Assembly (NCBI GenBank): GCA_963965975.1
Contig: OZ014415.1
Location: 997,001-1,061,000, forward strand
Direction: 5' to 3'
Length of the DNA: 64,000 nucleotides
Origin: Xestospongia bergquistia
Lineage: Eukaryota; Porifera; Demospongiae; Haplosclerida; Petrosiidae
Position numbers and translations under genes: made by a program
Shown: in pieces, positions 13,274 through 64,000 of the stretch
How positions within the stretch are numbered: position 1 is the stretch's first letter
How the letters are laid out: the number at the start of each line of letters is the position of its first letter
The notes under the pieces: model-generated
Databases searched by the model: none
What the model saw: the letters and a program-made list of their open reading frames with translations, nothing else
What the model was told of the DNA's origin: nothing

Positions 13274-15138
13274 ATGATGTCAACTGTCTTCTTTTGTCTT
13301 ACAGTTGGTTTACTAATACCATTGTTGGCCAGGTCTAATATTCCTCCTCCATTACCTCACATTGGTAAGTTTTCTGAAGGTAACTAGCTAAATATTGTTA
13401 TATAATACAGGAGTCCAATTATATGGAGGATATAATAAAACTATCTACCCAAATAATTCAGTGATTCCTGCAGAATATTTCCATCGTGATGACAGAAACA
13501 ATGATGAATTAGATGATGGCTTGTGGTGTCAAAGTGCTAGAAATGAGTCTAATATCGGAGCATGGTATTATCCTAATGGTAGTCAAGTGTCTACAGTAGA
13601 TGACTCATCACCATTACATTCTGTGTATATGCCAGGACAGATTGGACTATATCGTGACTATGGGATAAATAATTATGAGGGTATTTATACATGTGTTATA
13701 CCAGATGAATGTAATGTAAATCAAACATTGATGGTATTGCTGTACAAGGAGTATACTTACAGTATAAATAGTGAGTTAAATTGTATTAACAATCAATAAT
13801 AGTTTTATTAATGTGTTCAGGTGGACCTAAGATCATTGAAACTACATTCAACTCATTACTATCTACCAGAGATAATTCATCATTCCTGATATCCTTTAAT
13901 GTTACAGATGGAACAGCAACATATATCAATTGTACATTAAATGATACTTTGATCTATCCCAATATTACACAGACTATTCTATCATATCAACTACCAACTA
14001 AAATTTTAGTAAAGCTTCTATTTGAATCAAGAGATGAAGGATGGTACAATTGTTCTGTGTCTAACTCCAGAGTTAAGGATGAATACTACAATAATATATA
14101 TCAAGCATATCCTGCTCACAGTAACATATATGTTAAAGGTATGTATAATAGAACAAGACAATGTAATGATCATTTGTTAATTGTAGTTGCCAGAAAACCA
14201 ATTAATGTCACAGCTAAGTGTTTATGTTCCTCTGATGTTCTAGTCACATGGTCTTCACCAGTTGATAATGATCCGTTAATAGCTGGTTATGAGGTCTTCT
14301 ATGACATTGGTAATGGCAGCAGACAAAGTGTAGGAGTGACCAATGATACATTTCTGATGATCAGTGGCTTATGTAGTGCTCGAAACTACAGTTTCTTTGT
14401 AGTGTCATATTCAAATGAGGAAAATACACTTCCAAGTGAATGGAGTGATGTTTTTGTACTCATTGGAGGTAAACAGTATTAAATTGAACATAATTATATT
14501 ATACATTTTGCTATGTAAGTTAATGAAGTAACATCAAAAGGACAAAAAGAGAGTTCTCTAGTGTTTTATTCAATGCTCGCTGGTCTGGGGTTTCTATTTT
14601 TCACTAACATTATCACAGCTGCTGTATTAATTATAAGTTGTATAAGTTTTTGTAGATTTAGAAAGAAGCAAATCAAACAGTAAGTTTTAATTAGTTTTGT
14701 ACAATTAACAGTAGAGCTTAAAAATTACCTAATAAAATGTATATCTTATTATATAACATTTTCTAGTAACATAATGAAAACACACAATGTTTATTCTAGA
14801 CTTTACTGGTCATCAAGGTAGCAGACAAGTTTGTTATAAATGTTTTTAGCTACAATATCAATTGTTACAATACAGAAATAATAATATGTTTGAGAGTGAG
14901 TCTAAGTTTGAAAGTCAAATCCTTGAAGACAATGATGATAAAGAAGATCCGTTTTCATCACAAAATTATTTATTAGGTAGTATAAATTAAAAGATAATAA
15001 TATATCAGTGTTTGTTTCAATTATCATAGAATATATTATTATCAGAGTCTGTTTCCATTATCATAAAATATATCAACATCAAATTTTTTCCTTGCAGCTG
15101 CTACAGATAATGAGATAAGTACTTTTGTGAATCAGTAA
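13274..15138 (+). CDS. R1: Ig-Ig-FN3 transmembrane receptor with short stalk and its own tail
   Basis: Exons 13274-13364, 13411-13770, 13821-14138, 14187-14468, 14520-14679, 14767-14817, 14876-14976 and 15098-15138; 467 residues. The leader exon encodes MMSTVFFCLTVGLLIPLLARS. Ig1 has LWCQSAR, AWYYPNG and YEGIYTC; Ig2 has YINCTLND and DEGWYNCSVSN; FN3 has VLVTWSSP, GYEVFYD and LPSEWSD. The stalk is only about ten residues, then a helix (GLGFLFFTNIITAAVLIISC). The tail differs from both common types: NVYSRLYWSSR, an acidic stretch (EDNDDKEDPF) and NYLLA, so YxxL is present but no canonical ITIM. Exon 6 still aligns in position and phase with the type A cassette exons. DxNxDG in Ig1 reads DRNNDE. 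Probable surface recognition receptor; ligand unknown. Confidence 0.85.
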
Positions 15139-15566
15139 AGAAAAGATAGAACAACATTTACAAAGACACATTATTACTTTACAATATATGTTGCTGTTGT
15201 AGATTATTACTATAGAAATAATAATTATTATAATATAGTATGATGTTGTTATCAAAATACATATACAGATGACAGATCAAAGACACATATTGTATTGTTT
15301 AAGTGAATCATTGTTTTTGGTATTCTCAGTAAAACAATGTATGAAATATAAACTTTTCTTTCTTACTAAACAATTGTTTTCTCAAATCATTTTGATGTAC
15401 ATTAAAATTAAGAATTGTGAAACAATACTTAAAACTATAAAACTATGTACATGTCTTAATGTAGTTGTTAAGTAGCAATTTATGTAGTGGGTGTGTATAG
15501 AGTATCATGTTGTTATTGAGCATATCTTAATGAAAAGAATGTCCATTTTGTACTACCATAAATTAA

Positions 15567-16414
15567 AATTTAACTCAACTACACAATATATTAAAGTGTA
15601 TTTCTAGTAATTTAACTCAACTACACAATATATTATAGTGTATTTCTAGTAATTTAACTCAACTACACAATATATTATAGTGTATTTCTAGTAATTTATT
15701 AACTCAACTACACAATATATTATAGTGTATTTCTAGTAATTTAACTCAACTACACAATATATTATAGTGTATTTCTAGTAATTTAACTCAACTACACAAT
15801 ATATTATAGTGTATTTCTAGTAATTTAACTCAACTACACAATATATTATAGTGTATTTCTAGTAATTTAACTCAACTACACAATATATTATAGTGTATTT
15901 CTAGTAATTTAACTCAACTACACAATATATTATAGTGTATTTCTAGTAATTTAACTCAACTATACAATATATTATAGTGTATTTCTAGTAATTTAACTCA
16001 ACTATACAATATATTATAGTGTATTTCCAGTAATTTAACTCAACTACACAATATATTATAGTGTATTTCTAGTAATTTAACTCAACTACACAATATATTA
16101 TAGTGTATTTCTAGTAATTTAACTCAACTACACAATATATTATAGTGTATTTCTAGTAATTTAACTCAACTACACAATATATTATAGTGTATTTCCAGTA
16201 ATTTAACTCAACTACACAATATATTATAGTGTATTTCCAGTAATTTAACTCAACTACACAATATATTATAGTGTATTTCTAGTAATTTAACTCAACTACA
16301 CAATATATTATAGTGTATTTCCAGTAATTTAACTCAACTACACAATATATTATAGTGTATTTCTAGTAATTTAACTCAACTATACAATATATTATAGTGT
16401 ATTTCTAGTAATTT
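15567..16414. repeat. 42-bp satellite array (~20 copies)
   Basis: About 20 head-to-tail copies of a 42-bp unit ('aatttaactcaactacacaa' followed by 'tatattatagtgtatttcta' and 'gt'). Copies differ by single bases (cac/tac, ctag/ccag); one carries a 3-bp insertion. It lies between R1 and R2. The unit contains the near-palindrome 'acacaatatattatagtgt'. Confidence 0.97.
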
Positions 16415-17170: not shown

Positions 17171-20002
17171 ATGTCATCTATTGTCTTTTATCTTACAGTT
17201 GGTTTACTAATACCATTGTTGGCCAGGTCTAATAATCCTCCTCCATTACCTCACACTGGTAAGTTTTCTGAAGGTAACTAGCTAAATATTGCTATATAAT
17301 ACAGGAGTCCAATTATATGGAGGATACAATAAAACTATCTACCCAAATAACTCTATGATTCCTGCAAATTATTTCTATGGAAATGATTACAACAAAGATG
17401 GTTTAAATGATAACTTGTGGTGTCAAAGTGCTAGAAATGAATCTAATAATGGAGTATGGTATTATCCTAATGGTAGTCAAGTGTCTACAGTAGATGACTC
17501 ATCACCATTACATTCTGTGCATATGTCAGGACAGATTGGACTATATCGTGACTATGGGTTAGGTAACCTTGAGGGTATTTATACATGTATTATACCAGAT
17601 GAACATGATGTAAATCAAACATTAATGATATTGCTGTACAAGGAGCATACTTACAAAATGAATAGTAAGTTAAATTGTATTAACAATCAATAATAGTTTT
17701 ATTAATGTGTTCAGGAGGACCTAGGATCATTGAAACTACATTCAACTCATTACTATCTACCAGAGATAATCCATCATTCCTAATATCCTTTAATGTTACA
17801 GATGGAACAGCAACATATATCAATTGTACATTAAATGATACTTTGATCTATCCCAATATTACACAGACTATTCTATCATATCAACTACCAACTAAAATTT
17901 TAGTAAAGCTTCTATTTGAATCAAGAGATGAAGGATGGTACAATTGTTCTGTGTCTAACTCCAGAGTTAAGGATGAATACTACAATACTATAAGTCAAGC
18001 ATATCCTGCTCACAGTAACATATATGTTAAAAGTATGTATAATAGAACAAGACAATGTAATGATCATTTGTTAATTATAGTTGCTAGAAAACCAGTTAAT
18101 ATCAAAGCTAATTGGATATGTTCCTCTGATGTTCTAGTCACATGGTGTCCACCAGTTGATAATGATCCATTAATAGCTGGTTATGAGGTCTTCTATGACA
18201 TTGGTAATGGTAGCAGATATAGTGGAGGAATGACCAATGATATATTTCTTATCATCAGTGGTTTATATAATTGTAAAAACTACAGTTTCTTTGTAGTATC
18301 ATATTCAAATGAAGAACATACACTTCCAAGTGAATGGAGTGATATTATAACATTAATTAAAGGTAAGTTATCAAAATATTCAAATTTATACTTTTAACTT
18401 GCTTCATATCATTCACTATCCAAGTTGATGAAGTGACACCATCATCAGTTAATAGAGTAGAGTTGTCAACATCATTGATATCATTAACTAGCTTTAACAG
18501 AGCAACATCATTAATAATCAATGAAGTATCAACATCGTTAATTAATGAAGTATCAACATCATCAGTTGATCAACTATCAAGATCGTTAGTCAATCAAATA
18601 TCAACATTATCAATCAAACAAATATCAATGTCATTAGTTGATCAACTATCAAGATCGTTAGTCGATCAGGTATCAACATCATCAGTTGATCAAATATCAA
18701 CATCATCAGTTGATCAACTATCAAGATCATTAGTCAATCAGGTATCAACATCATCAGTTGATCAAATATCAACATCATCAGTTGATCAACTATCAAGATC
18801 ATTAGTCAATCAGGTATCAACATCATCAGTTGATCAAATATCAACACCATCAGTTAATCAAGTATTAACATCATTAGTCGATGAAATATCAACATCATCA
18901 GTTGATCAACTATCAAGATCGTTAGTCAATCAGGTATCAACATCATCAGTTGATCAAATATCAACACCATCAGTTAATCAAGTATCAACATCATTAGTCG
19001 ATGAAATATCAACATCATCAGTTGATCAACTATCAACATCATTAGTCAATATAGTATCAACATTAATAAAACCAACTTCAAGTCTTCAACCAAGTGACTA
19101 TATTAGAGAGAGTTCACAAGTGCCATTATCATGGCCAATTGGTGTTGGATTTCTACTATTCACTAACTTCATCACTCTCTTTATGCTCATTATAAGTTGT
19201 TTATGGTTACAAAGATATAAAGGAAGACATGAAAAACTGTAAGTATTGATGTTAATTTACAAATAGTTTATGTACGTAAATGTTGTTGTATTTATTAATT
19301 CCATATTTATCTAGTGACAAAATGAAAGTACATTATGAAAATACAGGGCAATATTTATCATCAAGGTAAGCAGACAATGTTGTTATAAATGTTATCAATC
19401 ATGATATTATTTCTTACAATATAGAGATGGTACTATAGTTGAAAGTGAATTAAAAGAACACAATCCTCACTTACCAGATAATGTCAATGATCATAAAGAA
19501 GATATTGATCCATATACTTTACATATTTATGCATCAATTAATAAAAGTTATGAAAACCTGTAAGTGTTATTGTTAATTTAACAATAGTTTTAATAAAAGT
19601 TATTGTATTTATTAATTCTAATTAAAGAATGTAATTGTAATTTTTTTACCATACTTATCTAGTGATGAAATAAGAGCACATGTAGAAGATACAAGACAAT
19701 ACTCTTCATTAAGGTAAGTAGACAATGTTGTTATAAGTTTTTTATAATTCTTACAATATAGAGATGATAGTATAGTTGAAAGTAAAGTAAATGACCATAA
19801 TCCACACTTAGCAAATAATGGCAATGATCATGAAGAAGATACTGGTCCATATACTTCACATATTTATTCAGTAGTTAATAAAAAGAATAAAAAGAAAGAT
19901 GACAATGGATCTAATCCTGTTCAATTACCACAGAGTGTTTTACCACCAGTATATTCACTAGCAACTGCTGTAGAGAATGATGATGATGAGACAACAATTT
20001 AG
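17171..20002 (+). CDS. R2: Ig-Ig-FN3 receptor, long stalk, type A tail (two cassettes)
   Basis: Exons 17171-17258, 17305-17664, 17715-18032, 18081-18362, 18425-19238, 19315-19365, 19425-19559, 19663-19713 and 19762-20002; 779 residues. Leader MSSIVFYLTVGLLIPLLARS, two Ig-like domains and an FN3 as in R1. Ig1 holds YNKDGLNDN in the variable loop. The stalk exon encodes ~200 residues of an 8-residue repeat (SSVDQIST / SLVNQVST), then the helix (WPIGVGFLLFTNFITLFMLIISCLW) and a basic stop-transfer. The tail consists of two exon pairs, each giving a short exon (GQYLSS, RQYSSL) and an acidic exon ending in HIYASI or HIYSVV, finishing VLPPVYSLATAV and DETTI. The repeated tyrosines in YxxL/V/I context suggest SH2-dependent signalling. 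The first ~130 nt of the stalk exon are shared with R11. Confidence 0.88.
18497..19060 (+). repeat. R2 stalk coding minisatellite (24 bp)
   Basis: Tandem 24-bp units (gttgatcaactatcaagatc, atcaggtatcaacatcatca types) encoding SVDQLSRS / LVNQVSTS / SVDQISTS. A higher-order 72-bp triplet is visible in the middle. The frame is open throughout. Confidence 0.92.
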
Positions 20003-21680: not shown

Positions 21681-24600
21681 ATGATATCAACTATTCTCTT
21701 TTGTTTTATAATTGGTTTACTAATACCATTGATTGTCAGGTCTAATTATCCTCCTCCATTACCTCACACTGGTAAGTTATCTATAGGTACATTAACTAAT
21801 TGTTATATAATACAGGAGTCCAATTATATGGAGGATACAATAATATGACCTATCCAAATAACTCCATGATTCCTGCGAATTATTTCTATCGTGATGATCC
21901 AAACAATGATAGATTAAATGATGGCTTGTGGTGTCAAAGTGCTAGAAATGAGCCTAATATTGGAGTATGGTATTATCCTAATGGTAGTCAAGTGTCTACA
22001 GTTAATGACTCGTCACCATTACATTCTGTGTATATGTCAGGACAGATTGGACTATATCGTGACTATGGGATAAATAACTATGAAGGTATTTATACATGTA
22101 TTATACCAGATGAACATAATGTAAATCAAACATTGATAATAGCACTGTACAAGGAGTATACTTACAGAATAAATAGTGAGTTAAATTATATTAACCATTA
22201 ATAATAGTTTTATTAATATGTTCAGGAGGACCTAGGATCATTGAAACTACATTCAACTCATTACTATCTACCAGAGATAATCCAGCATTCTTGATATCCT
22301 TTAATGTTACTGATGGAACAGCAACATATATCAATTGTACATTAAATGATACTTTGATCTATCCCAATATTACACAGACTATTCTATTATATCAACTACC
22401 AGCTAAAACTTTAGTAAAGCTTCTATTTGAATCAAGATATGAAGGATGGTACAATTGTTCTGTGTCTAACTCCAGAGTTAAAGATGAATACTACAATACT
22501 ATAAGTCAAGCATATCCTGCTCACAGTAACATATATGTTAAAGGTATGTATAATAGAACAAGACAATGTAATGATCATTTGTTAATTGTAGTTGCTGGAA
22601 AACCAGTTAATGTCACAGTTAAGTGGATAGGTCCCTCTGATGTTCTAGTGACATGGTGTTCACCAGTTGATAATGATCCATTAATAGCTGGTTATGAGGT
22701 CTTCTATGACATTGGTAATGGCAGCAGATATAGTGGAGGAATGACCAATGATACATTTCTGATGATCAGTGGTTTATATAATTGTAAAAACTACAGTTTC
22801 TTTGTAGTGTCATATTCAAATGAGGAATATACACTTCCAAGTGAATGGAGTGATATTATAACATTGATAACAGGTAAGTTATTAAAATGTTATTTTAAAA
22901 TTGCTTCATTTCATTCACTATATAAGTCAATGAAGTATCAACATCATTAGTTAATGAAATATCAACATTATCATTCAATGAAGTATCAACACCATTAATT
23001 GATCAAGTATTAATGTTAACAGTCGTTGAAGCATCAACATCATCAGTCGATTATATATCATTATCATCAGTCAATGAAATATCAAAGTCATTAATTGATC
23101 AACTATCAACATTATTAACCATTGAACTATTAACATCATCACTTGATCAAGTAACAACATCATCAGTTAATGAAATATCATCATTATCAGTCAATGAAAT
23201 ATCAACAACATCAGTTAATGAAATATCAACATCATCATCAGTCAATGAAATATCAACATCATCAGTTAATGAAATATCATCATCATCAGTCAATGAAATA
23301 TCAACATCATCAGTTAATGAAATATCAACATCATCAGTCAATGAAATATCAACATCATCAGTTAATGAAATATCGACATCATCAGTCAATGAAATATCAA
23401 CATCATCAGTTAATGAAATATCAACATCATCAGTTAATGAAATATCATCATCATCAGTCAATGAAATATCAACATCATCAGTTAATGAAATATCAACAAC
23501 ATCAGTTAATGAAATATCATCATCATCAGTCAATGAAATATCAACATCATCAGTTAATGAAATATCAACATCATCAGTCAATGAAATATCAACATCATCA
23601 GTTAATGAAATATCGACATCATCAGTCAATGAAATATCAACATCATCAGTTAATGAAATATCAACATCATCAGTTAATGAAATATCATCATCATCAGTCA
23701 ATGAAATATCAACATCATCAGTTAATGAAATATCAACAACATCAGTTAATGAAATATCATCATCATCAGTCAATGAAATATCAACATCATCAGTCAATGA
23801 AATATCATCATCAGTTAATGAAATATCAACATCATCAGTTAATGAAATATCAACATCATCAGTTAATGAAATATCAACATCATCAGTCAATGAAATATCA
23901 TCATCAGTTAATGAAATATCAACATCATCAGTTAATGAAATATCAACATCATCATTGGCCAATGAACTATTATCATCATCAACCTTGTTATCAACAATAT
24001 TAACAACAACAACATCTATTATTACAACATCAACAGGTTATGTTATCATTAATACAATCAACTTGTATATTTTCATTAACAACACTAACTATTATTACTA
24101 TATTATTAATAATAAATACAAGTAAACTATATAATAAAATAATATAATGATATTATTAAACTATATATCAGTATATATTCTATTGATATCATTGTATATA
24201 TAACAATAGTACATGTATTATTACATGTAATATAATATATTATTATATTGATCATATATTTATATACAACACTAACTAATGATCATATTATATAATAGAT
24301 ATAGATATAATGATTATATTATATATACTAGTAATATATTATTGATTATATTATATTGTCATTGTATTATGTAATAATGATGTCATTCTTCTATAGGGTT
24401 TACTCCTATTATCACTATGACAACCACTAGTACTGAGTACCTGTCTTCTACTAATATACTAATTATTATATCATCAATATTACTAGTACTATTAGTTATT
24501 ACTGGTATTATTATTATAATACTAGTACTGATTGTAATAAGACAATATAATAAGATACAGTTATTAAGGTATATATGTTATTAGATAAAGTAACTTTATT

Positions 24601-24841
24601 GATTATTATAATGATTTGTTTTATATAGTATGAAAACATCATATGAAGATATCGCTATGACAACCAGTCCAGCTTATAGTATTGTAAAAACAAGTGCTAA
24701 GTGAGTTACTAGGAGACATATTTTAAATTATAACATCATGTTTATAGTATATTTGAAGAAACATTGTATGAGATAACTGATGAAGAAGAAACTGAACTTA
24801 CTTCTGAACAAGATTATACTTATGAGAGAATTGAACATTGA
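21681..24841 (+). CDS. R3: Ig-Ig-FN3 receptor, very long stalk, unrelated membrane helix and tail
   Basis: Exons 21681-21771, 21816-22175, 22226-22543, 22592-22873, 22927-24036, 24397-24568, 24629-24700 and 24748-24841; 832 residues in frame. Leader, Ig1, Ig2 and FN3 are almost identical to R4. The stalk has ~330 residues of SSVNEIST repeats and ends TTTTSIITTS. After an AT-rich intron the helix exon (NILIIISSILLVLLVITGIII) shares nothing with the other members, and the tail (TSYEDIAM, PAYSIV, TLYEIT, YTYERI) is also unique. TSYEDI fits the ITSM pattern TxYxxI; YSIV and YERI are further YxxV/I sites. The gene combines the common ectodomain with a foreign signalling module. The splice at 24036/24397 is inferred from phase and a good donor; unspliced, the frame would stop at 24125. 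Confidence 0.8.
23158..23955 (+). repeat. R3 stalk coding minisatellite (24 bp)
   Basis: Over 30 units of 24 bp (acatcatcagttaatgaaat + atca) encoding TSSVNEIS; some units are 21 bp (SSVNEIS). Larger blocks of about 240 bp repeat (compare 23,281-23,460 with 23,521-23,700). Open on both strands because the unit is a multiple of three and has no stops. Confidence 0.95.
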
Positions 24842-25261
24842 ACCAATGAAGAAATACTGTACACTAGTACTTAACATGTCCATATGTTATAGAATAGTTA
24901 ATGTCTTATACTTAATAATAGACATTGTGTATATTTTAGTGTTAAGGGTTCTAGTCAATATTTACTAGACCCTCTGTATCTATTTTTTCAAATATCTTAA
25001 AAGATCAGATATAGTCTTATCTAGTGTTGTAACTTTACTAGATAACAATTAATATTAACAGATATATTAGTAATAAATGAAGTCTATTAGATAAATAATT
25101 CTGAACTAAATAATTATAATTATAAATATAATAAATTATAGAATTTTAATAGAGGTCAACGCCAGAGATAATAAGTATATAATATATTATGATATTATAA
25201 TATACTTTATTACAATAGGTGTCTACTAACAATGACATCATTACATATCTTCTTGTACATC

Positions 25262-25773: not shown

Positions 25774-25920
25774 ATGGTGCTCAGACTACAATATAGTTTA
25801 TTACTACTGCTATGTCTCTTTTGCATGAGATTTCAAGAAAGTCTCTGTATATATCAGTGGACCATAAGACATTTGATATGATGTATGAAATATTACCTGT
25901 TGAACAACAACAAGACAATA
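25774..25920 (+). pseudogene. Relic leader plus truncated tail exon (copy before R4)
   Basis: ATG at 25774 starts MVLRLQYSLLLLLCLFCMRF as in R7. The following tail-like exon has lost its first part: only the segment corresponding to the 'atatatcagtgga' to 'atgtatgaaatattacctg' stretch remains. Homologous to 20,811-21,018. Confidence 0.55.
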
Positions 25921-26571
25921 ATGATTAACATTATTATGTTTGTAAATATTCTTGTTAGTACAATAACTTATAAAGTTACAATGACATGTGTTGATCACAT
26001 GTCATAAATTGTAATGTCTTACAGTGTGTTGTTTGCTATTAATGACATAAACAGTCAATAACTTTTTAAAACAATTAAAAATGCTATTTTCTGTAAAAGG
26101 TATGTCATTTTCTATAAAGTTCATGATAGGTGGGCAGTGCCTATTAAAGGCCATAACACATGTATATTAAATGGTCATAAGTTTCCATAACACATGTCCC
26201 ATTAAAAGGTCATAATTCATGAGCAGTGTCTATTAAAAGGTCATAAAAATCATATTTATTTTTCAAAATGTCCTAAGTAAAAACCTTGCAGAGTTCATAA
26301 ACAAGGAAGTTTAGATATTATAAGGTATGTAAATATATACAGCTGTAGACCAGCTGACATTATATCTAATGGACTGTTGTTTTATATATTAGGCAGGAGT
26401 TTATCTAGTGTGTGTATATATTGTGTATTGTACTGTTTATTGTTATTGTTATTAATATAATATTATCTTAAAACAATTAATTACATTTACTGCTTATAAG
26501 GACTAAATGTATCATGTCAAATTTAATGTTATCTGTATGGATTATAAGACAGTCAACAGAGCTTATCATAA

Positions 26572-29500: not shown

Positions 29501-29700
29501 CACATTTAGCGAATAATGGCAATGATCATGAAGAAGATACTGGTGCATATACTTCACATATTTATGCAGCAGTTAATAAAAAGAATAAAAAGAAAGATGA
29601 CAATGGATCTAACCCTGTTCAATCACCACAGAGTGTTTTACCACCAGTATATTCACTAGCAACTGCTGTAGAGAATGATGATGATGAGACAACAATTTAG
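26572..29700 (+). CDS. R4: Ig-Ig-FN3 receptor, long stalk, type A tail (two cassettes)
   Basis: Exons 26572-26662, 26707-27066, 27117-27434, 27483-27764, 27818-28823, 28927-28977, 29037-29165, 29353-29403 and 29454-29700; 844 residues. The ectodomain is nearly a copy of R3, but the stalk (~280 residues, with SFDQIST and LYEISRS units before the SSVNEIST run) leads to the common helix (WPTCVGFILSTNSITIFVIIISWLW) and a type A tail. First cassette: short exon has GQDLSL, so the tyrosine of QYLSL is lost, then HIYAAV. Second cassette: VQYLSL and HIYAAV, ending PPVYSLATAV. Against R3 it shows that exons 1-4 and the helix/tail module can be recombined independently. Confidence 0.88.
28144..28590 (+). 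repeat. R4 stalk coding minisatellite (24 bp)
   Basis: About 18 units of the same 24-bp sequence as in R3, encoding TSSVNEIS, preceded by degenerate units from 27,900. Confidence 0.93.
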
Positions 29701-41714: not shown

Positions 41715-41754
<40 letters not shown>

Positions 41755-53170: not shown

Positions 53171-55272
53171 ATGATGTCGAGTGTCTTCATTTGTCTTACA
53201 GTTGGTTTACTATTACCATTGTTCGTCAGGTCTAATTATCATCCTCCATTACCTCACACTGGTAAGTCTTCTATAGGTATATTAATTAATTATTATTTGA
53301 TACAGGAGTCCAATTATATGGAGGATACAATAAAACTATCTACCCAAATAACTCTATAATTCCTGCAAGTTATTTCTATGAACATGATCACAACACTGAT
53401 GGATTAAATGATGGCTTGTGGTGTCAAAGTGCTAGAAATGAGTCTAATATTGGAGTATGGTATTATCCTAATGGTAGTCAAGTGTCTACAGTAGATGACT
53501 CATCACCATTACATTCTGTGCATATGTCAGGACAGATTGGACTATATCGTGACTATGGGATAAATAACTATGAGGGTATTTATACATGTGTTATACCAGA
53601 TGAACATAATGTAAATCAAACATTGATAATAGCACTGTACAAGGAGTATACTTACAGAATGAATAGTGAGTTAAATTGTATTAACAATTAATAATAATTT
53701 TATTAATGTGTTCAGGTGGACCTAAGATCATTGAAACTACATTCAACTCATTATTATCTACCAGAGATAATCCATCATTCTTGATATCCTTTAATGTTAC
53801 GAATGGAACAGCAACATATATCAATTGTACATTAAATGATACATTGATCTATCCCAATATTACACAGACTATTCTATCATATCAACTACCAACTAAAATT
53901 TTAGTAAGGCTTCTATTTGAATCAAGAGATGAAGGATGGTACAATTGTTCTGTGTCTAACTCCAGAGTTAAGGATGAATACTACAACAGTATAAATCAAA
54001 CATATCCTGCTCACAGTAACATATATGTTAAAGGTATGTACAATAGAACAAGACAATGTAATGATCATTTGTTAATTAGTTACCAGAAAACCAGTAAATG
54101 TCACAGTTAAGTGGATAGGTTCCTCTGATGTTCTAGTCATATGGTCTTCACCAGTTGACAATGATCCATTAATAGCTGGTTATGAGGTCTTCTATGACAT
54201 TGGTAATGGCACCACATATAGTGGAGGAATGACCAATGATACATTTCTGATCATCAGTGGGTTATGTAGTGTTAAAAACTACAGTTTCTTTGTAGTGTCA
54301 TATTCAAATGAGGAATATACACTTCCAAGTGAATGGAGTCATATTATAACATTAATTACAGGTAAGTTATCTAAATATTCGAATTTATACTTTTAACTTG
54401 CTTCATATCATTCACTATCCAAGTTGATGAAGTGACACCATCATCAGTTAATAGAGTAGAGTTGTCAACATCATTGATATCATTAACTAGCTTTAACAGA
54501 GCAACATCATTAATAATCAATGAAGTATCAACATCGTTAATTAATGAAGTATCAATATCATTAATCAATGTAATATCAACATCATCAGTTAATGAAATAT
54601 CGACATCATCTAATGAAGTAACAATGTCATCAGTCAATCAAATATCAGCATCAATATTTGATCAAGCATTAACATCATCTATTAATGAAATATCAACATC
54701 ATTATTAAAACCAACTTCAAATTATCAACCAAATAACTGTAATTGTGGAGAGAATTCACAAGTGTCATTATCATGGCCAATTTGTGTGGTATTTCTACTT
54801 TTCACTAACTTCATTACTATTATTGTGTTCATTATAAGTTGTTTATGGTTGTTAAGATCTAAAAGAAGACATGAAAAATTGTAAGTGAAAAGTTAATTTA
54901 CAATTTTTCTCACACATTATTATAGTTATACTATATGTCACTAAATTCTAAATTTACTGTTTATCAATACTTTAATATGTACACATCATTTTGGCATAAA
55001 CATGTTTATGTATATAAATTGATAATATCTTTATAATATTGTATATTTATTATAATAGATCTGTGGATAATAATGACACTATCAAGAAATGTCCAAAGTT
55101 AGTTATAATTAATATTTGGTGTACATCTGCAGTAATAATAATTCTATCTGTCTCTTTCTCTCTATTCAGTATGACTGATTTTGAAATCAAATTGACAGAA
55201 TGTAGTGCATATCAGTTAGTAAAGAAAAATGAGGAAGCCGTTGCTGATATTATGTATGAAAGTGTTATGTAG
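53171..55272 (+). CDS. R11: Ig-Ig-FN3 receptor, medium stalk, short type B tail
   Basis: Exons 53171-53261, 53306-53665, 53716-54033, 54080-54361, 54424-54880, 55059-55097 and 55170-55272; 549 residues. Ig1 loop DHNTDGLNDG preceded by EH, unique here. The Ig2-FN3 intron is 46 nt rather than 48 (two bases lost before its AG). The stalk exon begins with about 130 nt identical to R2 (DEVTPSSVNRVELSTS onward), then changes to its own units (SINEIST, IFDQALTS) and the CNCGENSQVSLSWPICVVF helix. The small exon gives SVDNNDTIKKC; the tail has SAYQLV (SxYxxV) and IMYESVM (IxYxxV) at the C terminus. Confidence 0.87.
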
Positions 55273-57166
55273 AGGATTACATCTCTATTATCACATCATC
55301 TACCATGAATACATATGTACATTATAACAAAACATGTATATTAATTTTGTACCTAGAAACTAAAGGTTGACTTGAACTTGTTTTTTTTGTTCTTCCATAC
55401 ATGGTAATACATGTATGTATAGTCTATTGATTAACTATTAGAGATTTTTAACAAGTAAATTTATTTTATATATGATTATATATATATAGAAAAATCATAC
55501 TACACAAAATTCAATTATTTTTAAAAATATCAAAAAGAAATAGCTAAAAAAATATTTTAAATAATTATTACCTATTCTTAATAGTAAATAAATGAAAGAG
55601 ACTTAGACAGAAGTAACATATACTTGACAAGACTGCTTCTCCATGTCCATCATCACATCAATATGTGATTAAAATGAATAAAAAAATATGCTTTACAAGT
55701 GAATGGGGAAAAGGAAACAAACAGTTAGAGACAGTATAAAAAAATTAATGGATATAAATATGAATAAATGGACATTTAAAGACAAATGGACAGATAGATA
55801 CTTATATAAATGGACAGCTAAACACAAATAGATTCATATAAAATCATGATTTATTTATGAGATTGATTTAATCTCTTCCTCATCTGTTGTTTTTATTTAA
55901 ATATTATTTATATTGTACATGAAATAGGAGTCAATGAAATAACAATTCTCTCAGTCAATGAAATAACAACTCTCTCAGTCAATAAAAACTGTAAGTGTTA
56001 AAGTTAGTTTACAATTCTTATATGTTTAGTAATGCCATTACTAATAATACATACATCTATTTACTAATGTGATATTGTAGATTTAATAAGAATACCATCA
56101 AGAAATATCCATTATTTTGAAATTGAACTGAATGAATGTGGTGTGTATTAATTAGAAACATGTAATATGATTGAACATGATCAACTAACAACTACATATG
56201 CTAAAATAGAGGACTCCCCAGATCACCAACTATCTACTTCTCATCATCACAAAGTCCTCAATCACCACTCTTTCAAGAAGAGAGTACTAGTATATATGAA
56301 AGTCTTATATAGAGGATTACATCTCTATTGCTATACAATCTATATTATATATAATACACATACAATATATAAAATATATATAGTACTTCTTGCATATTTT
56401 TGTACTCATTAACACTGTCTGGTTTATTTATTTGATGATTGTCCTTTTTATCACAGTTTTTACAGGACATTAATTACCTGTCACACATAGTATATTAACC
56501 ATATATGGTCATAGATGTATTGTTTATTGTATATTAATTAATTAACTATTAGAAATTACTAACAAATCAGTTTGAATAAAATATAAATATACAGAAAAAA
56601 TCAATTATAGTATTATACAAAATTGTAACTAACATAAAGTAATATATTTTAATTAAATATAATTATATATTTCCTACTTAGAGACTTAGATATAAATAAC
56701 ATATGCTTGACAAGACTACATCTTCATGTCCATCATTATATCAATATTTGATTTAAATGAATAAAAATAAAATAATGTTTTACAAGTAAGTGGGAAAAAA
56801 TTAATGAATAGTTAGACACAATATTAAAAGTCAGTGTATAGAAGTAAAAAAAATAGACTGCTAAATTCAAATGGACAGATAGGTACTTTTGTAAGTAGAC
56901 AGCTATAAAAATGGATCATATAAAATTCATAACTCAATTATGAGATTGAGTTTAATCGAGTTTTCCTCATCTGTTTTTTTATTAGATATTATTTATGTTT
57001 ATGTTAAATAGGAGCCCAATTTATGACTTTAAGATTCGTATCCACTATTCCAAAAGACCCAGATTTTTAACCCTGCATGTTGCACGCATGCACCGCAGAT
57101 TGCTACACCCCCGAGCAATAAGCCTTTCACTAGTAGGCGGGCAGTCTGGGGAACTGACCTTTGTAA
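55273..57166. other. R11-R12 spacer with a relic tail
   Basis: Both halves look like type B spacers: each has 'gacaagact(a/g)c(a/t)tcttc...' and 'aaatggacagatagg' blocks, one before and one after the relic at 55,931-56,312. This means a whole receptor unit once stood here and was deleted apart from its 3' end. Confidence 0.65.
55931..56312 (+). pseudogene. Relic stalk and type B tail of a deleted receptor
   Basis: Begins with three SVNEITTL-type units (GTCAATGAAATAACAATTCT...), a CT|gtaagtg donor, a relic small exon (AAGAATACCATCAAGAAATA) and the tail exon (FEIELNECGV, then a stop at the YQL position, then HDQLTTTYAKIEDSP and SIYESLI). The R10 tail is the closest relative. A one-base loss in the Ser/Pro linker shifts the frame. 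No leader, Ig or FN3 remains. Confidence 0.85.
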
Positions 57167-59282
57167 ATGATGTTGAGTGTCTTCTTTTGTCTTACAGTTG
57201 GTTTACTAATACCATTGTTTGTCAGGTCTAATAGTCTTCCTCCATTACCTCGCACTGGTAAGTTATCTAAATGTATATTAACTAATTATTATATAATACA
57301 GGAGCCCAATTGTATGGAGGATACAATAAAACATCCTACCCAAATAACTCGATGATTCCTTCAAATTATTTTTATCCTTATGATGTAAACAATGATGGAT
57401 TAAATGATGGCTTGTGGTGTCAAAGTGCTAGAAATGAGCCTAATATTGGAATATGGTATTATCCTAATAGTAGTCAAGTGTCTACAGTAGATGACTCATC
57501 ACCATTACATTCTGTGCATATGTCAGGACAGATTGGACTATATCGTGACTATGGGATAAATAACTATGAGGGTATTTATACATGTATTATACCAGATGAA
57601 CATAATGTAAATCAAACATTGATAATAGCACTGTACAAGGAGTATACTTATAGAATAAATAGTGAGTTAAATTATATTAACATAGTTTTATTAATGTGTT
57701 CAGGTGGACCTAAGATCATTGAAACTACATTCAACTTGTTACTATCTACTAGAGATAATCCATCATTCCTGATATCTATTAATGTTAGAGATGGAACAGC
57801 AACATATATCAATTGTACATTAAATGATACTTTGATCTATCCCAATATTACACAGACTATTCTCTCATATCAACTACCAACTAAAATTTTAGTAAAGCTT
57901 CTATTTGAATCAAGAGATGAAGGATGGTACAATTGTTCTGTGTCTAACTCCAGAGTTAAGGATGAATACTACAATACTATAAGTCAAGCATATCCTGCTC
58001 ACAGTAACATATATGTTAAAGGTATGTATAATAGAACGAGACAATGTAATGATCATTTGTTAATTGTAGTTGCCAGAAAACCAGTTAATGTCACAGCTAA
58101 GTGGATAGGTCCCTCTGATGTTCTAGTCACATGGTCTTCACCAGTTGATAATGGTCCATTAAAAGCTGGTTATGAGGTCTTCTATGACAATGGTAATGGC
58201 AGCAGACAAAGTGGAGGAATGACCAATGACACAATTCTGATTATCAGTGGCTTATGTAGTGTTCAAAACTACAGTTTCTTTGTAATGTCATATTCAAATG
58301 AGGAACATACACTTCCAAGTGAATGGAGTGATATTATAACATTAATTAAAAGTAAGTTTTGAAATTGTTATTTTAAAATTGCTTCATTTCATTTACTACA
58401 TAAGTCAATGAAATATCAACATTATCAACGAATGAAGCATCAACATCATTAATTGATCAAGTAACAACATCATCAGTCAATCTAGTATTAACATCATCAG
58501 TTAATGACATATCAACATCATCAGTTCATCAATTATCAACATCATCAATTCATCAATTATCAATATCATCAGTTAATGAAATATCAACATCATCAGTTCA
58601 TCAATTATCAACATCATTAGTCAGTGAAGTAACAATGTCATCAGTCAATCAAATATCAGCATCATCAGTCAATCTAGTATTAAGATCATCTGTTAATGAA
58701 TTAACAACATTATTAAAACCAACTTTAAATTATCAACCAAATGACTGTAATTGTGGAGAGAATTCACAAGTATCATTATTATGGCCAATTGGTGTGGGAT
58801 TTCTACTTTTCACTAACCTCATCACTATCATTGTGCTCATTATAAGCTGTTTATGGTTTACAAGGTCTAAAATAAGACAAGAAACACTGTAAGTATTAAA
58901 GTTAATATGCACTTTTCTCACACTTATTATAGTAATACTATAGATAATGATATATGTGTAATACTTATAATATTATATATACATTTGTACACATCATTGA
59001 GTCATAAACATGTTCATTTATATAAATTGATAATATTTGTATAATTTTGTATTTACTATGTAGATCTGTGGATAATAATGACACTATCAAGAAATGTCTA
59101 AAGTTAGTTATAATTAATATTTAGTGTATATCCTATAGTAATAATAATTCTCTCTCTGTCTCTGTCTCTCTCTATTCAGTATGACTGATTTTGAAATCAA
59201 ATTGACAGAATGCAGTGCATATCAGTCAATAAAGAAAGATGAAGAAGCCACTGGTGATATTCTATATGAAACTGTTATGTAG
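57167..59282 (+). CDS. R12: Ig-Ig-FN3 receptor, medium stalk, short type B tail
   Basis: Exons 57167-57257, 57302-57661, 57704-58021, 58070-58351, 58405-58888, 59064-59102 and 59180-59282; 558 residues. The Ig1-Ig2 intron is short and open (57662-57703, 42 nt), so Ig1 and Ig2 read as one frame even unspliced, and so does the 48-nt Ig2-FN3 intron. Ig1 loop YPYDVNNDGLNDG is unlike the others. The stalk (~90 residues) uses SSVHQLST and SSVNDIST units; helix WPIGVGFLLFTNLITIIVLIISC. The small exon is SVDNNDTIKKC; in the tail the first motif has changed to SAYQSI (YxxI kept: Y-Q-S-I) and the last is ILYETVM. Confidence 0.87.
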
Positions 59283-60305
59283 AGGATTACATTTCTATTA
59301 ATACATCATCTACTATACATATATATGTGACCTGATTTGCAAAAAGGGACCACTTCTGTCAAAACATTTGTGCTGATTTGTGAAAAATCAACTGTTCAAA
59401 CATTTCCAAAAAACATTTTGTATACATACAGTTGTTATATATTCATAACTATTCTATATGTATACAAAACTGTTTTTAGTATTTTTAATTGTTTTTTTTT
59501 ATTACAAATCAGGTCACAAATGTTTTGATAGAAGTAGTTCTTTTTCTGCAAATCAGGTCTCATATGTACATTATAACAATGTGTGTACATTAATTTTGTA
59601 CCTAGAAATCATTTGTGCTTGTTTGTTTTTCCATATATGGTGATACATGTATGTGTGGTCTATTAATTAACTATTAGAGATTATTAACATGTAATTATAT
59701 AGAAAAATCAAATTACTAATTATTCTTAAATAATATAAAAAGTTTATAAACTAAAACTTAAAAAATACATTATATATTAAAAAGAAGCAAATGAGAATAT
59801 TTAACTTTTAAAATATTTTACAAGATTCATTTATTTGTAAATAACATAAAAACAAATTATAAGCTCTTAATAATAATAGCAATACATGAAAAAGAAATAA
59901 TTAAAGATTCTTAAAATAATCATTACCTATTTTTATTAGTGAGTAGAGGGAGAGAGACTTAGATAAAATTATTATTTGCTTGACAAGACTTAATCTTCAT
60001 GTCCTTCCTCACATCTGATGATGTAATTAAATAAAAATAAATAATTTTTACAAAGAAGTGAGAAAAGCGAAAAGTAAGTGAAATGAGTTAGAAACTTGAT
60101 CTCTTTTTTTATCTGTTGTTTTTATTAAATATTATTCATAGTATACATGAAATAGCAGTCCTATTTGACTTCGAATTCGTATCGTCCTCTTTTGCACTAA
60201 ATAAATTTAACCCTTCAAATACAAGTCTCACATGTGCACTTTCGCAGATTGCGTCTCCGCCCAAGCAGTCTGGTCATTAGATATAATTATCGAACCTTGT
60301 AAGTG
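59283..60305. other. R12-R13 spacer
   Basis: Type B spacer ('ccatatatggtgatacatgt', 'gacaagacttaatcttcatg', GC-richer block 'gattgcgtctccgcccaagc' before R13) interrupted by a MITE-like element at 59,329. Confidence 0.6.
59329..59559. mobile_element. MITE-like inverted-repeat element (231 bp)
   Basis: Left end GACCTGATTTGCAAAAAGGG... and right end ...TTTTTCTGCAAATCAGGTC are inverted repeats of ~50-55 bp (the shared 'caaaacatttgtg' lies inside), around an AT-rich centre. It is absent from the homologous spot after R8, R9 and R11, where the flanking spacer is continuous. Flanking 'catatatgt' and 'catatgta' may be remnants of the target duplication. No coding capacity. Confidence 0.85.
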
Positions 60306-62022
60306 ATGTTGAGTGTCTTCTTTTGTCTTACAATTGGTTTACTAATACCATTGTTTGGCAGGCCTATTAATCCTCCTCCATTACCTCACATTGGTAAGTT
60401 ATCTGAACGTAAATTAACAAATTATTATATAATACAGGAGTCCAATTATATGGAGGATACAATAATATGACCTACCCAAATAACTCCATAATTCCTGCAG
60501 AATATTTCCATCGTGATGATAGAAACAATGATGGATTAAATGATGGCTTGTGGTGTCAAAGTGCTAGAAATGATTCTAATATTGGAGTATGGTATTATCC
60601 TAATGGTAGTCAAGTGTCTACAGTAGATGACTCATCACCATTACATTCTGTGTACATGTCAGGACAGATTGGACTATATCGTGACTATGGGATAAATAAC
60701 TATGAGGGTATTTATACATGTGTTATACCAGATGAACATGATGTAAATCAAACATTGATGGTATTGCTATGCAAGGAGCATACTTACAGTATAAATAGTA
60801 AGTTAAATTGTATTAACAATCAATAAACGTTTTAATAATGTGTTCAGGAGGACCTAGGATCATTGAAACTACATTCAACTCATTACTATCTACCAGAGAT
60901 AATCCTGCATTCCTGATATCCTTTAATGTTACAGATGGAACAGCAACATATATCAATTGTACATTAAATGATACTTTGATCTATCCCAATATTACACAGA
61001 CTATTCTATCATATCAACTACCAACTAAAATTTTAGTAAAACTTCTATTTCAATCAAGAGTTGAAGGATGGTACAATTGTTCTGTGTCCAACTCCAGAGT
61101 TAAGGATGAATACTACAATAATATAAGTCAAGCATATCCTGCTCGCAGTAACATATATGTTAAAGGTATGTACAATAAAATAAAACAATGTAATTAAAGG
61201 TATGCAGAGGGGTAGGAATGAAGTTTAAGTTTGGGGTGGGGAGTCAAGAGGTTATTGTGTACATAGTCTTGAGTGCAAATCAGGGGGGCTTAGCCCCTTC
61301 TCCCCTATGAAGGTATGTACAATAGAACAAGACAATGTAACAATCATTTGTTAATTATAGTTACCAGAAAAACCAGTTATACTTTAAAATCCTATTTATT
61401 TTATTTTTATCCAAATCAATTAGAAATAAGACCATCATCAGTTAATACAGTAGAGTTATCATCCTCTTTTGTATTATCATCATCAGCAAATAAAATAACA
61501 ACTCTCCCAGTCAATGAAATAACAACTCTCTCCGTCAGTGAAGTAACAACTCTCCCAGTCAGTGAAATAACAACTCTTTCAGTCAGTGAAGTAACAACTC
61601 TCTCAGTCAGTGAAATAACAACTCTCTCAGTCAGTGAAGTAACAACTCTCTCAGTCAGTGAAGTAATAACTCTCTCAGTCAATGAAGTAACAATAATAGT
61701 AAAACCTACTGCAAGTTCTCAATCAAGCAACTACATTTGTGATCAAGTGTCATTATTATTGTCAATTGGTGTCGGATTTCTACTTTTCACTAACCTTATC
61801 ACTATCACTTTATTTATTATAAGCTGTTTGTGGTTTATAAGATCTAAAAGAAGACATGAAAAACTGTAAGTGTTAAAGTTAATTTGTAATGTTGCTATTA
61901 ATAACACACATGTATTTGTAATTTTGTAGATTTATTAATTGTATCAATCCAAGGTTAGTTATATAAATATCTAGAGCAGATCACTATAGATGATTCAGTA
62001 TTGATGTCTCTCTCTCACTCCT

Positions 62023-62066
<44 letters not shown>

Positions 62067-62288
62067 AGTATAACTGATTTTGAAATTGAACTGAATGAAT
62101 GTAGTGCATATCAATTAGAAACATCTTACATGATTGCACATGATCAACTAACAACTAGGTATGCTAAAGTAGAGGACCCCCCATATCACCAACTATCTAC
62201 ATCTCCTTCCTCATCATCACAAAGTCCTCGATCACTACTCTCTCAAGAGGATGAAGCCAGTGCTACTATATATGAAAATCTTATATAG
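60306..62288 (+). CDS. R13: Ig-Ig receptor that has lost FN3, type B tail with ITSM
   Basis: Exons 60306-60393, 60438-60797, 60848-61165, 61424-61865, 61930-61953 and 62069-62288; 483 residues in frame. Leader MLSVFFCLTIGLLIPLFGRP. Ig1 (DRNNDGLNDG loop) and Ig2 are intact. The FN3 exon is reduced to its first ~17 nt (from 61361, with an extra A) fused to stalk-side intron, so splicing from Ig2 to the old stalk acceptor at 61424 keeps frame; use of 61361 also stays open, adding a Tyr/Phe-rich stretch. A ~150-bp GC-rich insert with a repeat of the donor region sits in the intron. Stalk has TTLSVSEV units, helix IGVGFLLFTNLITITLFIISC. Tail: SAYQLE, TRYAKV (ITSM) and TIYENLI. Confidence 0.82.
61197..61312. 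other. GC-rich insert in R13 intron flanked by a direct repeat
   Basis: Foreign to the surrounding AT-rich intron ('gcagaggggtaggaatgaag', hairpin-prone 'ggggggcttagcccc'). The bases 'aaggtatgtacaata' occur on both sides, so a donor-like sequence is duplicated (61,163 and 61,312). It could be a small transposon or a repair insertion that accompanied FN3 loss. Confidence 0.6.
61498..61690 (+). repeat. R13 stalk coding minisatellite (24 bp)
   Basis: Eight units of 24 bp ('actctctcagtcagtgaagt' + 'aaca') encoding TLSVSEVT / TLPVSEIT. The unit is related to the TSSVNEIS repeats; the relic at 55,931 has the closest version. Confidence 0.93.
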
Positions 62289-63859
62289 TGGATTACATCT
62301 ATTATTATACAACCTATATTATATATAATACACATACATTATATATAATATATACTGCTACTTGTACACTTTGTACTCATTAATACAGTCTAGGTATCAT
62401 CACAGTTTTTACAGGTGCATTAAACCTTAGAGGACCACTGTCACAACATACCCACCTTTATTAAAAACCACTGCTGTAACATGTGGAATGTTAATTAAAA
62501 GAAAATTCTTATCTATAAGTTTTAACATTTATAAAAAGCTTACAATATAATATTCAATAGTTACTACTATAGAACAACAAGTGATTTTGATCAGGTTTTT
62601 GTAAATCTTTCAGGTGCTAAAACAGAGGGAGAGAGCATGTATGATTATATTATGATTGTAATAGCAATGACGAACTGGATAATGAAGTCCTTTAGGTTGT
62701 GTTCAGATAAATGTTTTAAAAATTTCCATGCCTGACTTAAACTCATAATTAGTAGCATTTCATCTATGATATATTCACATAATTACACAAGTTAAAAAAT
62801 TACAATACTATTAACTTGTGCTCGTTGCTAAGGACAAGATGTGGGGGGTCCTTCTTGGTGTAACTTCTATGATGATGTAACTTGTACTATGATGATGACA
62901 TCACTATGTGTCATAAGGTTTTGGCTTAGGGTTTAGGTGATGGATTTAGATGATGTCAGCATATATATATGATGACATCACTAAGTGTCATTTAATGACG
63001 ATGTCATCAGAGTGAAAGAACCACCCCACATGGGTTCAAGTGTCCATGGAAATGGCCCCATAGGCAAGAACAACAAACAAACTATAATGTTTGATGGTCT
63101 GTAGCAATATGTTATTTAGAAAACAGAAAGTCAAGCATATATACGCTGGCTCTTTTCATTAACAAACTTTGTGAATCTTGTGGGGTTTTTTAAAGGAAAT
63201 AAATCTTATAGGCGTGGCCTCTAGGAGTAATTGCCTGAATTTTGTCACATATAGTTTATTAACCATATATGGTCATACGTGTATGTTTATTAAGTAACTA
63301 TTAATAAGCTATTAATTAACTATTAGAAATTGATTAAAATGCATACAGAAAAAAATCAATTAAAATATTATACAAAATTTGTAACTAACATGACTAATAA
63401 AATATTAAGAGCAACACAAAATATAACCAACAGTTCAGCTATCATAGCATTGCGTATCACAGTAACACCATACGTGTCATTTCACCAAAATCAGAGTCTT
63501 ATGCTAATACTGGATGCTCAGGACATCCAATCAACTGTAAAATCCTGTCTTGCTAGCCTACACCTTTTTTACTTGTTTATACACCTGTTTCATGTGTGGA
63601 TTATCAAAAACCTGTGAGAACTAAAATGTTAGTGACAGCAAAGCCTTCATGGACAAGTCTTCAATGTGCTAACTTAGAGGGGAAGTATTGAGAGTGATGA
63701 TGACCCCATAAATGAGGTACCTTGGTATGGCCTATATTGCAACACGCATGTTCTTGCCACTCCCATTTTTGAGGAAGGAGCTGGAAGCGGCACCATGAAA
63801 AAAAGTGAAACAATGATGCTGTTCACTACCATCCTCCGCACTTGTTAAGACTTTTCCAG
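62289..63859. other. R13 3' flank and spacer
   Basis: Includes imperfect repeats of 'gatgatgacatcactatgtg' at ~62,865-63,010 and 'ccatatatggtcatacgtgt' at ~63,266 (the type B spacer mark). An open frame at 63,330-63,617 has no recognisable domain or signal peptide. The GC-richer stretch 63,640-63,850 is unlike other promoter blocks. Confidence 0.5.
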
Positions 63860-64000
63860 ACTTCTTTTGTGTTACAGTTAGTGTACTAATACCATTGTTT
63901 GTCAGCTCAAATGATGTAATCCTCCTCCATTACCTCATGCTGGTAAGTTTTGTATATGTATATTAACTAATTGTTATATAATACAGGAGTCCAATTATAT
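63860..64000 (+). pseudogene. R14: start of a further receptor copy, leader damaged, cut by window edge
   Basis: 'cttcttttgtgttacagtta' to 'cctccattacctcatgctg' matches the leader exon but lacks the ATG codons and has a ~5-bp gain in the middle ('tcaaatgatgtaatcc' against 'tctaataatcc'), which breaks phase with the next exon. A normal intron 1 follows and exon 2 begins at 63,988 (GAGTCCAATTATAT). The rest is outside the window, so function cannot be judged. Confidence 0.7.

Follow-up and report, generated by a model that had tools for sequence, protein, structure and literature searches.

KIR, LILR and other paired receptors are encoded in head-to-tail arrays in which similar ectodomains are attached to tails of opposite output; the ectodomains of KIR and LILR consist of C2-type immunoglobulin (Ig) domains only. 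Passages of a 2025 review state that sponges, cnidarians and ascidians do not share conserved candidate allorecognition proteins, and that the cnidarian, ascidian and mammalian systems all use tails of the type of the immunoreceptor tyrosine-based inhibitory or activation motifs (ITIM/ITAM) (PMC12065747). Here we analyze a stretch of 64,000 nucleotides from the genome of the sponge Xestospongia bergquistia (assembly GCA_963965975.1, contig OZ014415.1, positions 997,001 to 1,061,000; hereafter the window) that contains a large array of genes for Ig-Ig-FN3 receptors with tyrosine-motif tails. The array is a cluster of Ig receptor genes with several kinds of tyrosine tail, and systems of this sort are known; new are the sponge host and a readable tail-capture event. 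We think it fairly probable that these genes encode cell-surface recognition receptors that work as a paired, multi-output set.

The array was delineated with exon probes from gene g2 (start 17171), run by tblastn over the window and 29 kb of the adjoining 3' flank. The window holds 12 similar leader-Ig1-Ig2 sets, starting at 13.3, 17.2, 21.7, 26.6, 31.9, 36.0, 43.2, 47.6, 50.4, 53.2, 57.2 and 60.3 kb, and one divergent copy (g7, at 39.6 kb), that is, 13 loci that span 49 kb and are all on the forward strand. The array extends past the window, with one partial copy across the window end (63.9 kb) and 3 more sets at 65.0, 69.2 and 76.9 kb. The loci share the exon order leader, Ig1, Ig2, FN3, stalk/transmembrane (TM) and then tail, so that the head-to-tail arrangement and the exon order proposed in a first-pass annotation are borne out. 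That annotation counted at least 13 genes and several relics; the 13 in-window loci and the relics agree with it, but complete open models, with GT-AG at each internal border and a single terminal stop, are obtained for only 11 of the 13 (g1-g7 and g9-g12). In g8, the frame of the long stalk breaks before the TM segment and does not run into the TM frame; the frame of g13 stays open between the phase-1 acceptor at 61361 and the TM segment. Beyond the window, g15 and g17 also give open GT-AG models. The borders of the leader, Ig1, Ig2, FN3 and stalk/TM exons are in phase 1, as had been annotated for the genes at large, but those from the TM exon onwards, which the annotation did not mention, are in phase 2, the exception being the divergent g7 with its extra juxtamembrane exon. 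The stalk, correctly described as length-variable, is encoded by 24-bp repeats of very unequal length, from 3.5 to 52.8 copies. At 22925-23954, 27816-28636 and 44499-45766, these repeats are open in several frames on both strands, so that callers of open reading frames (ORFs) may over-predict there.

At least three kinds of tail are present in the array. Tail A (g2, g4, g5 and g6) is of a modular YxxΦ type, with YxxV/I/L and some YxN motifs, and consists of repeated exon pairs with YAAV, YASI and YSVV and, in g2 and g6, also YENL. Tail B first appears at g7 and is found in a short form (g8, g9, g11 and g12), with two ITIM-like motifs in each gene, and in a long form (g7, g10, g13, g15 and g17), with a TxYxx[IV] motif and, in g7, g10 and g17, ITIM-like motifs as well. 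Tail C, that of g3, carries the motifs TSYEDI, PAYSIV and TYERI. When matches to [S/I/V/L]xYxx[I/V/L] or TxYxx[V/I] in the tails are compared with those in composition shuffles, this combined pattern of ITIM and the immunoreceptor tyrosine-based switch motif (ITSM) is in excess in g9, g10, g11, g12 and g17 (p 0-0.0085), and ITIM alone is in excess in g7 (p 0.013) and g8 (p 0.003). The combined pattern is at chance level in the tail A genes and g1 (p 0.35-1), including the single ITIM/ITSM-like matches in g4 and g5; g3 has one ITSM-like match (p 0.08), and the count for g15, where the end of tail B is lost to a stop, is not significant (p 0.14). Accordingly, the description of the tails as ITIM/ITSM-like in the first-pass annotation applies to the tail B genes taken together, from g7 downstream, but not to tail A or the other upstream genes, where there is no excess over shuffles. 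A reading of short tail B as an ITAM was rejected because the spacing of its two tyrosines is unlike the usual ITAM spacing. None of the 11 open in-window models contains a catalytic domain; all end in tyrosine tails and a stop, which places them outside the receptor phosphatases and kinases. Pfam gives no convincing match for the juxtamembrane region of g7; the best one (RIFIN, E 0.065) falls below the cut-off and was taken as chance.

The relationship between ectodomains and tails is most evident in g3 and g4. Their ectodomain proteins are identical in 350 of 350 residues, and from the leader through FN3, introns included, the two genes differ by 3 mismatches in 1190 bp, with 96% shared over 2.8 kb; yet g3 has tail C and g4 has tail A. 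After the shared part, g3 runs into a TM segment and tail that resemble those of a subfamily with multiple FN3 domains. An identical ectodomain on different tails is the pattern of paired receptors, and very similar ectodomains joined to different signaling tails within one cluster are seen both in g3/g4 and in the tail A and tail B halves of the array.

Tail B allows a specific event to be traced. A 1.9-kb stretch of g7 that includes the TM segment, tail and flank was aligned to nine genes, leaving out g1, g3, g4, g5, g15 and g16. It aligns to g8-g13 and g17, reaching the 3' flank in most of them and including the TM exon in none, and gives no alignment to g2 or g6. The alignment sets in at g7 position 41798 for g8 and g12 and at 41811 for g11, both in the intron that follows the TM donor (41613), and g8-g13 have TM exons of the array type. 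Most simply, a break after the TM exon would have put a g7-like tail on an array ectodomain and TM segment, and the copies would then have multiplied downstream of g7. In the whole genome, tail B yields 6 matches (of 7 candidates), all at C5:1.039-1.077 Mb, with short tails below the reach of the query (coordinates with a C prefix are those of the assembly), and tail A yields 28, several per gene, all within the array or on C1. Because tail B is found in the array only and the homology to g7 stops short of the TM exon, the tail was probably captured in place, inside the array. The probable donor is g7, the sole gene with long tail B seen to have a different ectodomain, which would set the direction of the transfer.

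A candidate machinery for reading tail B is encoded elsewhere in the genome. Tandem-SH2 phosphatases are the usual readers of ITIMs, and humans have two genes for them. In X. bergquistia, two SH2 domains precede the protein tyrosine phosphatase (PTP) domain, by coordinates, in eight genes: five intact single frames of 532-567 amino acids with the SHP-like order SH2-SH2-PTP form a tandem array at C3:1265457-1283528 on the reverse strand, and further genes are found at C3:0.916 Mb, on C7 and, with introns, on C6. A ninth such gene on C3 has a TGA, and one more PTP on C3 is without SH2 among the matches listed. The tandem-SH2 phosphatases on C3 are candidate readers of tail B. Other signaling genes in the genome include a tandem cluster of ten single-frame SH2-kinase genes at C6:1621395-1697212 (reverse strand), a possible Syk-like tandem-SH2 kinase at C5:8491785-8494427 and, about 7 kb from the array, an exon of a PI3-kinase regulatory subunit (window 5531-6073, reverse strand; SH2 of p85 alpha, PDB phmmer E 6.8e-22). 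PTP domains also appear next to relatives of the array itself: at C5:620-770 kb, on the reverse strand, each of the 11 full Ig1 exons, leaving aside a fragment of Ig1 at 666 kb, has a PTP match downstream, on the same strand and before the next Ig1 exon, so this cluster probably encodes receptor phosphatases with the N-terminal module of the array. Receptor tyrosine kinases were rejected as relatives, since among the kinase matches listed none is interleaved with Ig1 clusters as the PTP matches are.

Together, these features suggest how the system might operate. Ig1-Ig2-FN3, held on a Ser/Thr-rich stalk of variable length, would bind a ligand on another sponge cell or a microbe, presumably through Ig1, and very similar ectodomains on different tails would allow one ligand to be read as different signals. 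Recombination in the stalk repeats or past the TM exon would exchange the tails, aided by the matching exon phases; tail B would stem from the divergent g7 inside the array and would have spread with the copies downstream of it. Src-type kinases could phosphorylate the tail tyrosines, after which tail B would recruit tandem-SH2 phosphatases, and tails A and C would recruit other SH2 proteins, such that opposite signals are integrated on contact with other cells or microbes. Expression of the genes, inhibition by tail B, the ligand and a role in self/non-self or microbe recognition are what we infer from the genes; the functional reading offered in the first-pass annotation is, to this extent, plausible.

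The ectodomain bears on the foremost alternative, namely, that the array is a cell-adhesion family for tissue sorting or re-aggregation, in which different copies in different cells make up an adhesion code like that of the clustered protocadherins and the tails tune adhesion strength with no role in recognition. In the predicted structures, the ectodomain belongs to the Ig superfamily and is of the Ig-Ig-FN3 type, in agreement with the first-pass annotation. FN3 passes the Pfam cut-off in both copies tested, g1 and g7, and is present as an exon in all 11 open in-window models; the Pfam search of the window gave no Ig match for Ig1 or Ig2, and in the relative P0022, the second domain barely passes the Ig_2 cut-off (27.2 vs 27). 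The assignment of Ig1 is based on a structure model and a Cys-Trp-Cys pattern; the VIA-align rows are dominated by FN3 and say nothing on Ig1 alone. The model (m6fa3c83c5557), made for the g12 frame with two short introns read through and on an 82-row alignment, has a mean predicted local distance difference test (pLDDT) score of 77, with 86-96 by block for residues 11-110 (Ig1); a single-sequence model of the ectodomain is weak (pLDDT 32). By E-value, the best Foldseek match is an Ig-Ig-FN3 fragment of NCAM2 (9.9e-15), followed by matches that include PTP delta and contactins, an architecture of adhesion molecules that would suit an adhesion family. Right before the first Cys of Ig1 there is an acidic DxNxDGxxD-like stretch (e.g., 17375-17415) that varies between the conserved acids. 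It could be a Ca2+ loop, again fitting adhesion; among 99 distinct sequences, 28 have the strict pattern, 44 a loose one and 27 neither. The upstream 300 bp are barely alignable between 11 copies (mean p-distance 0.46), so that the copies may differ in expression, and the ratio of nonsynonymous to synonymous divergence (dN/dS), below 1 as detailed below, is likewise compatible with adhesion. Set against this, turnover with relics, ITIM/ITSM-like tails and tail swaps on identical or similar ectodomains are features found more typically in paired receptors of the immune type, and we consider adhesion an unlikely explanation compared with recognition by a paired set.

The divergence among the copies is unevenly distributed. 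Mean amino acid identity is 85% in Ig1 (15 copies), 94.5% in Ig2 (15) and 80% in FN3 (14), and dS/dN is 0.126/0.084, 0.072/0.025 and 0.159/0.105, respectively. The variable ectodomain of the first-pass annotation therefore holds only in part, Ig2 being nearly uniform, and no exon has dN/dS above 1, on which ground a positively selected hypervariable ectodomain was rejected. Of the 21 Ig1 codons with at least 3 residues, 11 are in codons 1-35 of 119, around the acidic DxNxD[G]xxD stretch; synonymous differences in Ig1 also peak where its amino acids vary most, a second ground for that rejection. In the 11 models, divergence is 4% in the Ig1-Ig2 intron, 9% in the Ig2-FN3 intron, 13.5% in the leader intron and 22% in the FN3-stalk intron. 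In a codon bootstrap, the dS difference between FN3 and Ig2 is clear (95% 0.023 to 0.159), and that between Ig1 and Ig2 is borderline (-0.003 to 0.116). Because divergence is lowest around Ig2 and the Ig1-Ig2 intron, a core centered on Ig2 has probably been homogenized by gene conversion. A neutral tandem expansion with concerted evolution, in which unequal crossing over keeps the copies, tail differences are accidental and most copies are redundant or silent, would account for this core (p-distance 0.04 in the Ig1-Ig2 intron and dS 0.07 in Ig2 vs 0.13 in Ig1 and 0.16 in FN3) and for the relics and the frame-broken copy, but is quite improbable given that 11 of the 13 loci are open, multi-exon tails included, that dN/dS is below 1 in all three ectodomain exons and that sequences resembling the tail A modules (P0036) and the tail C motif AYS (P0004) are found in proteins from other sources.

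Comparison with a sister lineage places part of this divergence in time. A proline-rich ORF that flanks the array (11198-12196, forward strand) has an 85% identical counterpart, P0087, and is a useful locus marker. P0087 and the array copies P0034, P0037, P0039 and P0051 appear to be on one 315,760-base contig in ENA. With the flanking ORF just 85% identical, these copies were rejected as alleles of this locus and more likely stem from a sister species. For 14 own and 9 sister rows, the identities own-own, sister-sister and own-sister are 0.945, 0.943 and 0.923 in Ig2 and 0.802, 0.823 and 0.796 in FN3; the near-equal FN3 values within and between the lineages suggest that the FN3 differences date from about the time of the split or from before it.

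The family is much larger than the array. Ig1 matches were scored at 150 of 191 candidate places in the genome, some of them partial, and 141 of the 150 are without an internal stop; most are in clusters on C5 and C1, and others on C8, C2 and elsewhere. Close relatives of Ig2 (at least 71% identity over most of the domain) comprise the 15 array copies, the C1 copies and a few at C5:2.56-2.59 Mb. The C1 loci L063-L065 have tail A-like modules, and L066 (C5:2.59 Mb) has another tail; relatives on C8 and at C5:0.39 Mb have extra FN3 domains (frames by eye, with FN3 matches at those clusters), and one at C5:2.03 Mb is rich in Ig-like domains (frames by eye). By eye, the ENA protein P0061 (longest contig 908,542 bases) has the same sequence as the leader-Ig1 frame of L064 (C1:3188001-3193000), which implies that another assembly of the same species is in ENA. 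Outside this genome, protein searches returned Amphimedon queenslandica proteins and ENA and JGI contigs, a bird contactin being the weakest of 83 matches, as fits a demosponge genome. The Amphimedon proteins, uncharacterized and numerous (e.g., A0A1X7U126, A0A1X7T5L3 and A0A1X7THE7), have the same Ig1-Ig2-FN3 N-terminal module, with 36-40% identity over 92-95% of the query for P0001-P0004, but many are 830-930 amino acids long with further FN3 domains. Of six such proteins that were read, three (P0001, P0002 and P0004) have a tyrosine tail, with SPAYSTV/SPAYATT/VEPVYDT-like motifs and none that resembles tail B. Given these relatives and the 150 Ig1 matches, the statement in the first-pass annotation that the exon and motif set matches no known one is not supported as worded. 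Two short JGI contigs have contiguous frames across the exon borders, P0036 with YIYAAVNK modules and P0079 with Ig2-FN3-TM, which fits spliced transcripts of relatives, presumably in other sponges.

In a literature search with subscription journals largely outside its reach, no description of such sponge Ig/FN3/ITIM receptors was found, and this family may be described elsewhere. Parts of two reports describe Ig- and FN3-containing genes as regulated or expanded in some sponges (PMC6208332, PMC4772301). In the main text of a graft transcriptome study in Amphimedon, no word starting with immunoglobulin, fibronectin, tyrosine or receptor occurs, and aggregation-factor adhesion is given there as not significantly enriched (PMC5450542).

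Several observations weigh against a paired recognition set or narrow it. The gene models derive from genomic sequence alone, with splice sites that we picked to keep the frames open. For g8, g11 and g12 only, the aligned part of g7 begins in the intron behind the TM exon; for g9 it begins at 41893, in the juxtamembrane exon, for g10 and g13 at 41972, where the tail exon starts, and for g17 at 42029, inside that exon. An ITIM excess is lacking in the tail A genes (0-1 match, p 0.24-1, split by motif), and their YxxΦ counts are marginal (p 0.005-0.07). Within tail B, g10 is weak once split by motif (ITIM p 0.16, ITSM p 0.024), and g13 has an ITSM (p 0.03) without a strict ITIM; the copies being related, none of the tail motif p-values are independent. 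No ectodomain exon gives a sign of positive selection (dN/dS 0.67 in Ig1, 0.66 in FN3 and 0.35 in Ig2). In the tree of copies (14 own, 9 sister and 3 C1 rows, with the sister row P0077 dropped as truncated), 2 of the 22 inner branches are starred, most of the tree is unresolved, and neither species set forms one clade. The whole-chain template modeling scores to NCAM2 are low (0.23/0.28, root-mean-square deviation 17.5), as expected if the domains are differently hinged. Finally, the linkage of Ig1 exons to PTP is one of position alone.

The loci and relics of the array are listed in Table 1. Two other features of the window are a 42-bp satellite (15567-16414; 20 copies, 98% matches) between g1 and g2, and, on the reverse strand at 472-1632, a gene with NIDO and AMOP domains beside a tandem repeat (1643-1961).

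Table 1. Genes, relics and aligned tail stretch of the receptor array (window positions; L, leader; t1+t2, tail exon pair)
Feature	Position	Strand	Exons	Model	Description
g1	13274..14990	+	7	open	L-Ig1-Ig2-FN3, short stalk/TM, degenerate tail
g2	17171..20002	+	9	open	long stalk, tail A with two t1+t2 pairs
g3	21681..24841	+	8	open	tail C; TM exon 24397-24568, tail exons 24629-24700 and 24748-24841
g4	26572..29700	+	9	open	tail A
g5	31903..34496	+	11	open	tail A with three t1+t2 pairs (342-bp tandem repeat 33347-34380)
g6	36024..38404	+	9	open	tail A
g7	39582..42194	+	8	open	divergent subfamily member, tail B with ITIM-ITSM-ITIM-like motifs
g8	43246..46365	+			L-Ig1-Ig2-FN3, long stalk, short tail B (SAYQLV, IIYETV)
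g9	47584..49441	+	6	open	short tail B (SAYQLV, IMYESV)
g10	50390..52219	+	6	open	long tail B (TTYAKI, SIYESL)
g11	53171..55272	+	6	open	short tail B
g12	57167..59282	+	6	open	short tail B (SAYQSI, ILYETV)
g13	60303..62288	+			most of FN3 exon gone, long tail B
Relic	12676..13029	+			Ig1 exon with stops
Relic	25774..25927	+			g7-type leader joined to another tyrosine tail, read by eye; L066 tail similar
Relic	56116..56309	+			long tail B exon with stop
Partial copy	63918..64000	+			copy start (leader end, Ig1), running on past the window
g7 stretch	41798..42987	+			intron after TM exon, tail exons and 3' flank; alignable to g8-g13 and g17, not to g2/g6

Going further, the array could belong to a sponge allorecognition or microbe-recognition complex in which very similar ectodomains took over, in place, the ITIM/ITSM tail of a neighboring gene. 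Activating and inhibitory partners would result, an expanded set of tandem-SH2 phosphatases would read them, and receptor phosphatases built on the same ectodomain module would add another output. We regard this extended scheme as speculative and rather unlikely in full; if true, it would place the logic of paired receptors with ITIM-type tails in the sponge lineage. An array with ITIM/ITSM-like tails, a readable tail capture and expanded phosphatase readers would extend the ITIM/ITAM convergence to sponges, where a set of paired recognition receptors may have been put together independently. In any case, the array supplies definite genes, tails and a breakpoint for graft or aggregation assays.

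The resemblance to the KIR/LILR and Alr clusters noted in the first-pass annotation, to which fester/FcoR can be added, is supported as a likeness in how the systems work. The sponge genes differ from KIR and LILR by their FN3 exon and hence do not have an ectodomain of C2-type Ig only; when the ectodomain was searched against PDB sequences, the matches (47 sequences, E up to 1) were to FN3 regions, with no KIR or LILR among them. The LAR/PTP delta receptor phosphatases share the order of Ig and then FN3 in the ectodomain, the fold matches and, at C5:620-770 kb, PTP downstream of related Ig1 exons, whereas the gene models in the window have tyrosine tails and no PTP domain. The Alr genes of Hydractinia likewise form a cluster and encode single-pass proteins of the Ig superfamily (PMC11067881), and ITIM/ITAM motifs are described for candidates (PMC12065747), but, as far as the sections of these sources on Alr go, the Alr proteins have low mutual identity (PMC11067881), V-set/I-set domains (PMC11999971) and a proven function in allorecognition; the sponge copies are very similar to one another and contain FN3, which sets the two apart by description. 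The Botryllus FcoR genes, too, are clustered Ig-superfamily receptors, and their tails, which carry ITIMs, hemITAMs or core YxxI/L/V, vary between relatives; they consist of V-type Ig, sushi and two C2 Ig domains, with no FN3 named in the relevant passages of the review, and belong to a histocompatibility locus known by genetics (PMC12065747), whereas the sponge array is known from its genes alone.

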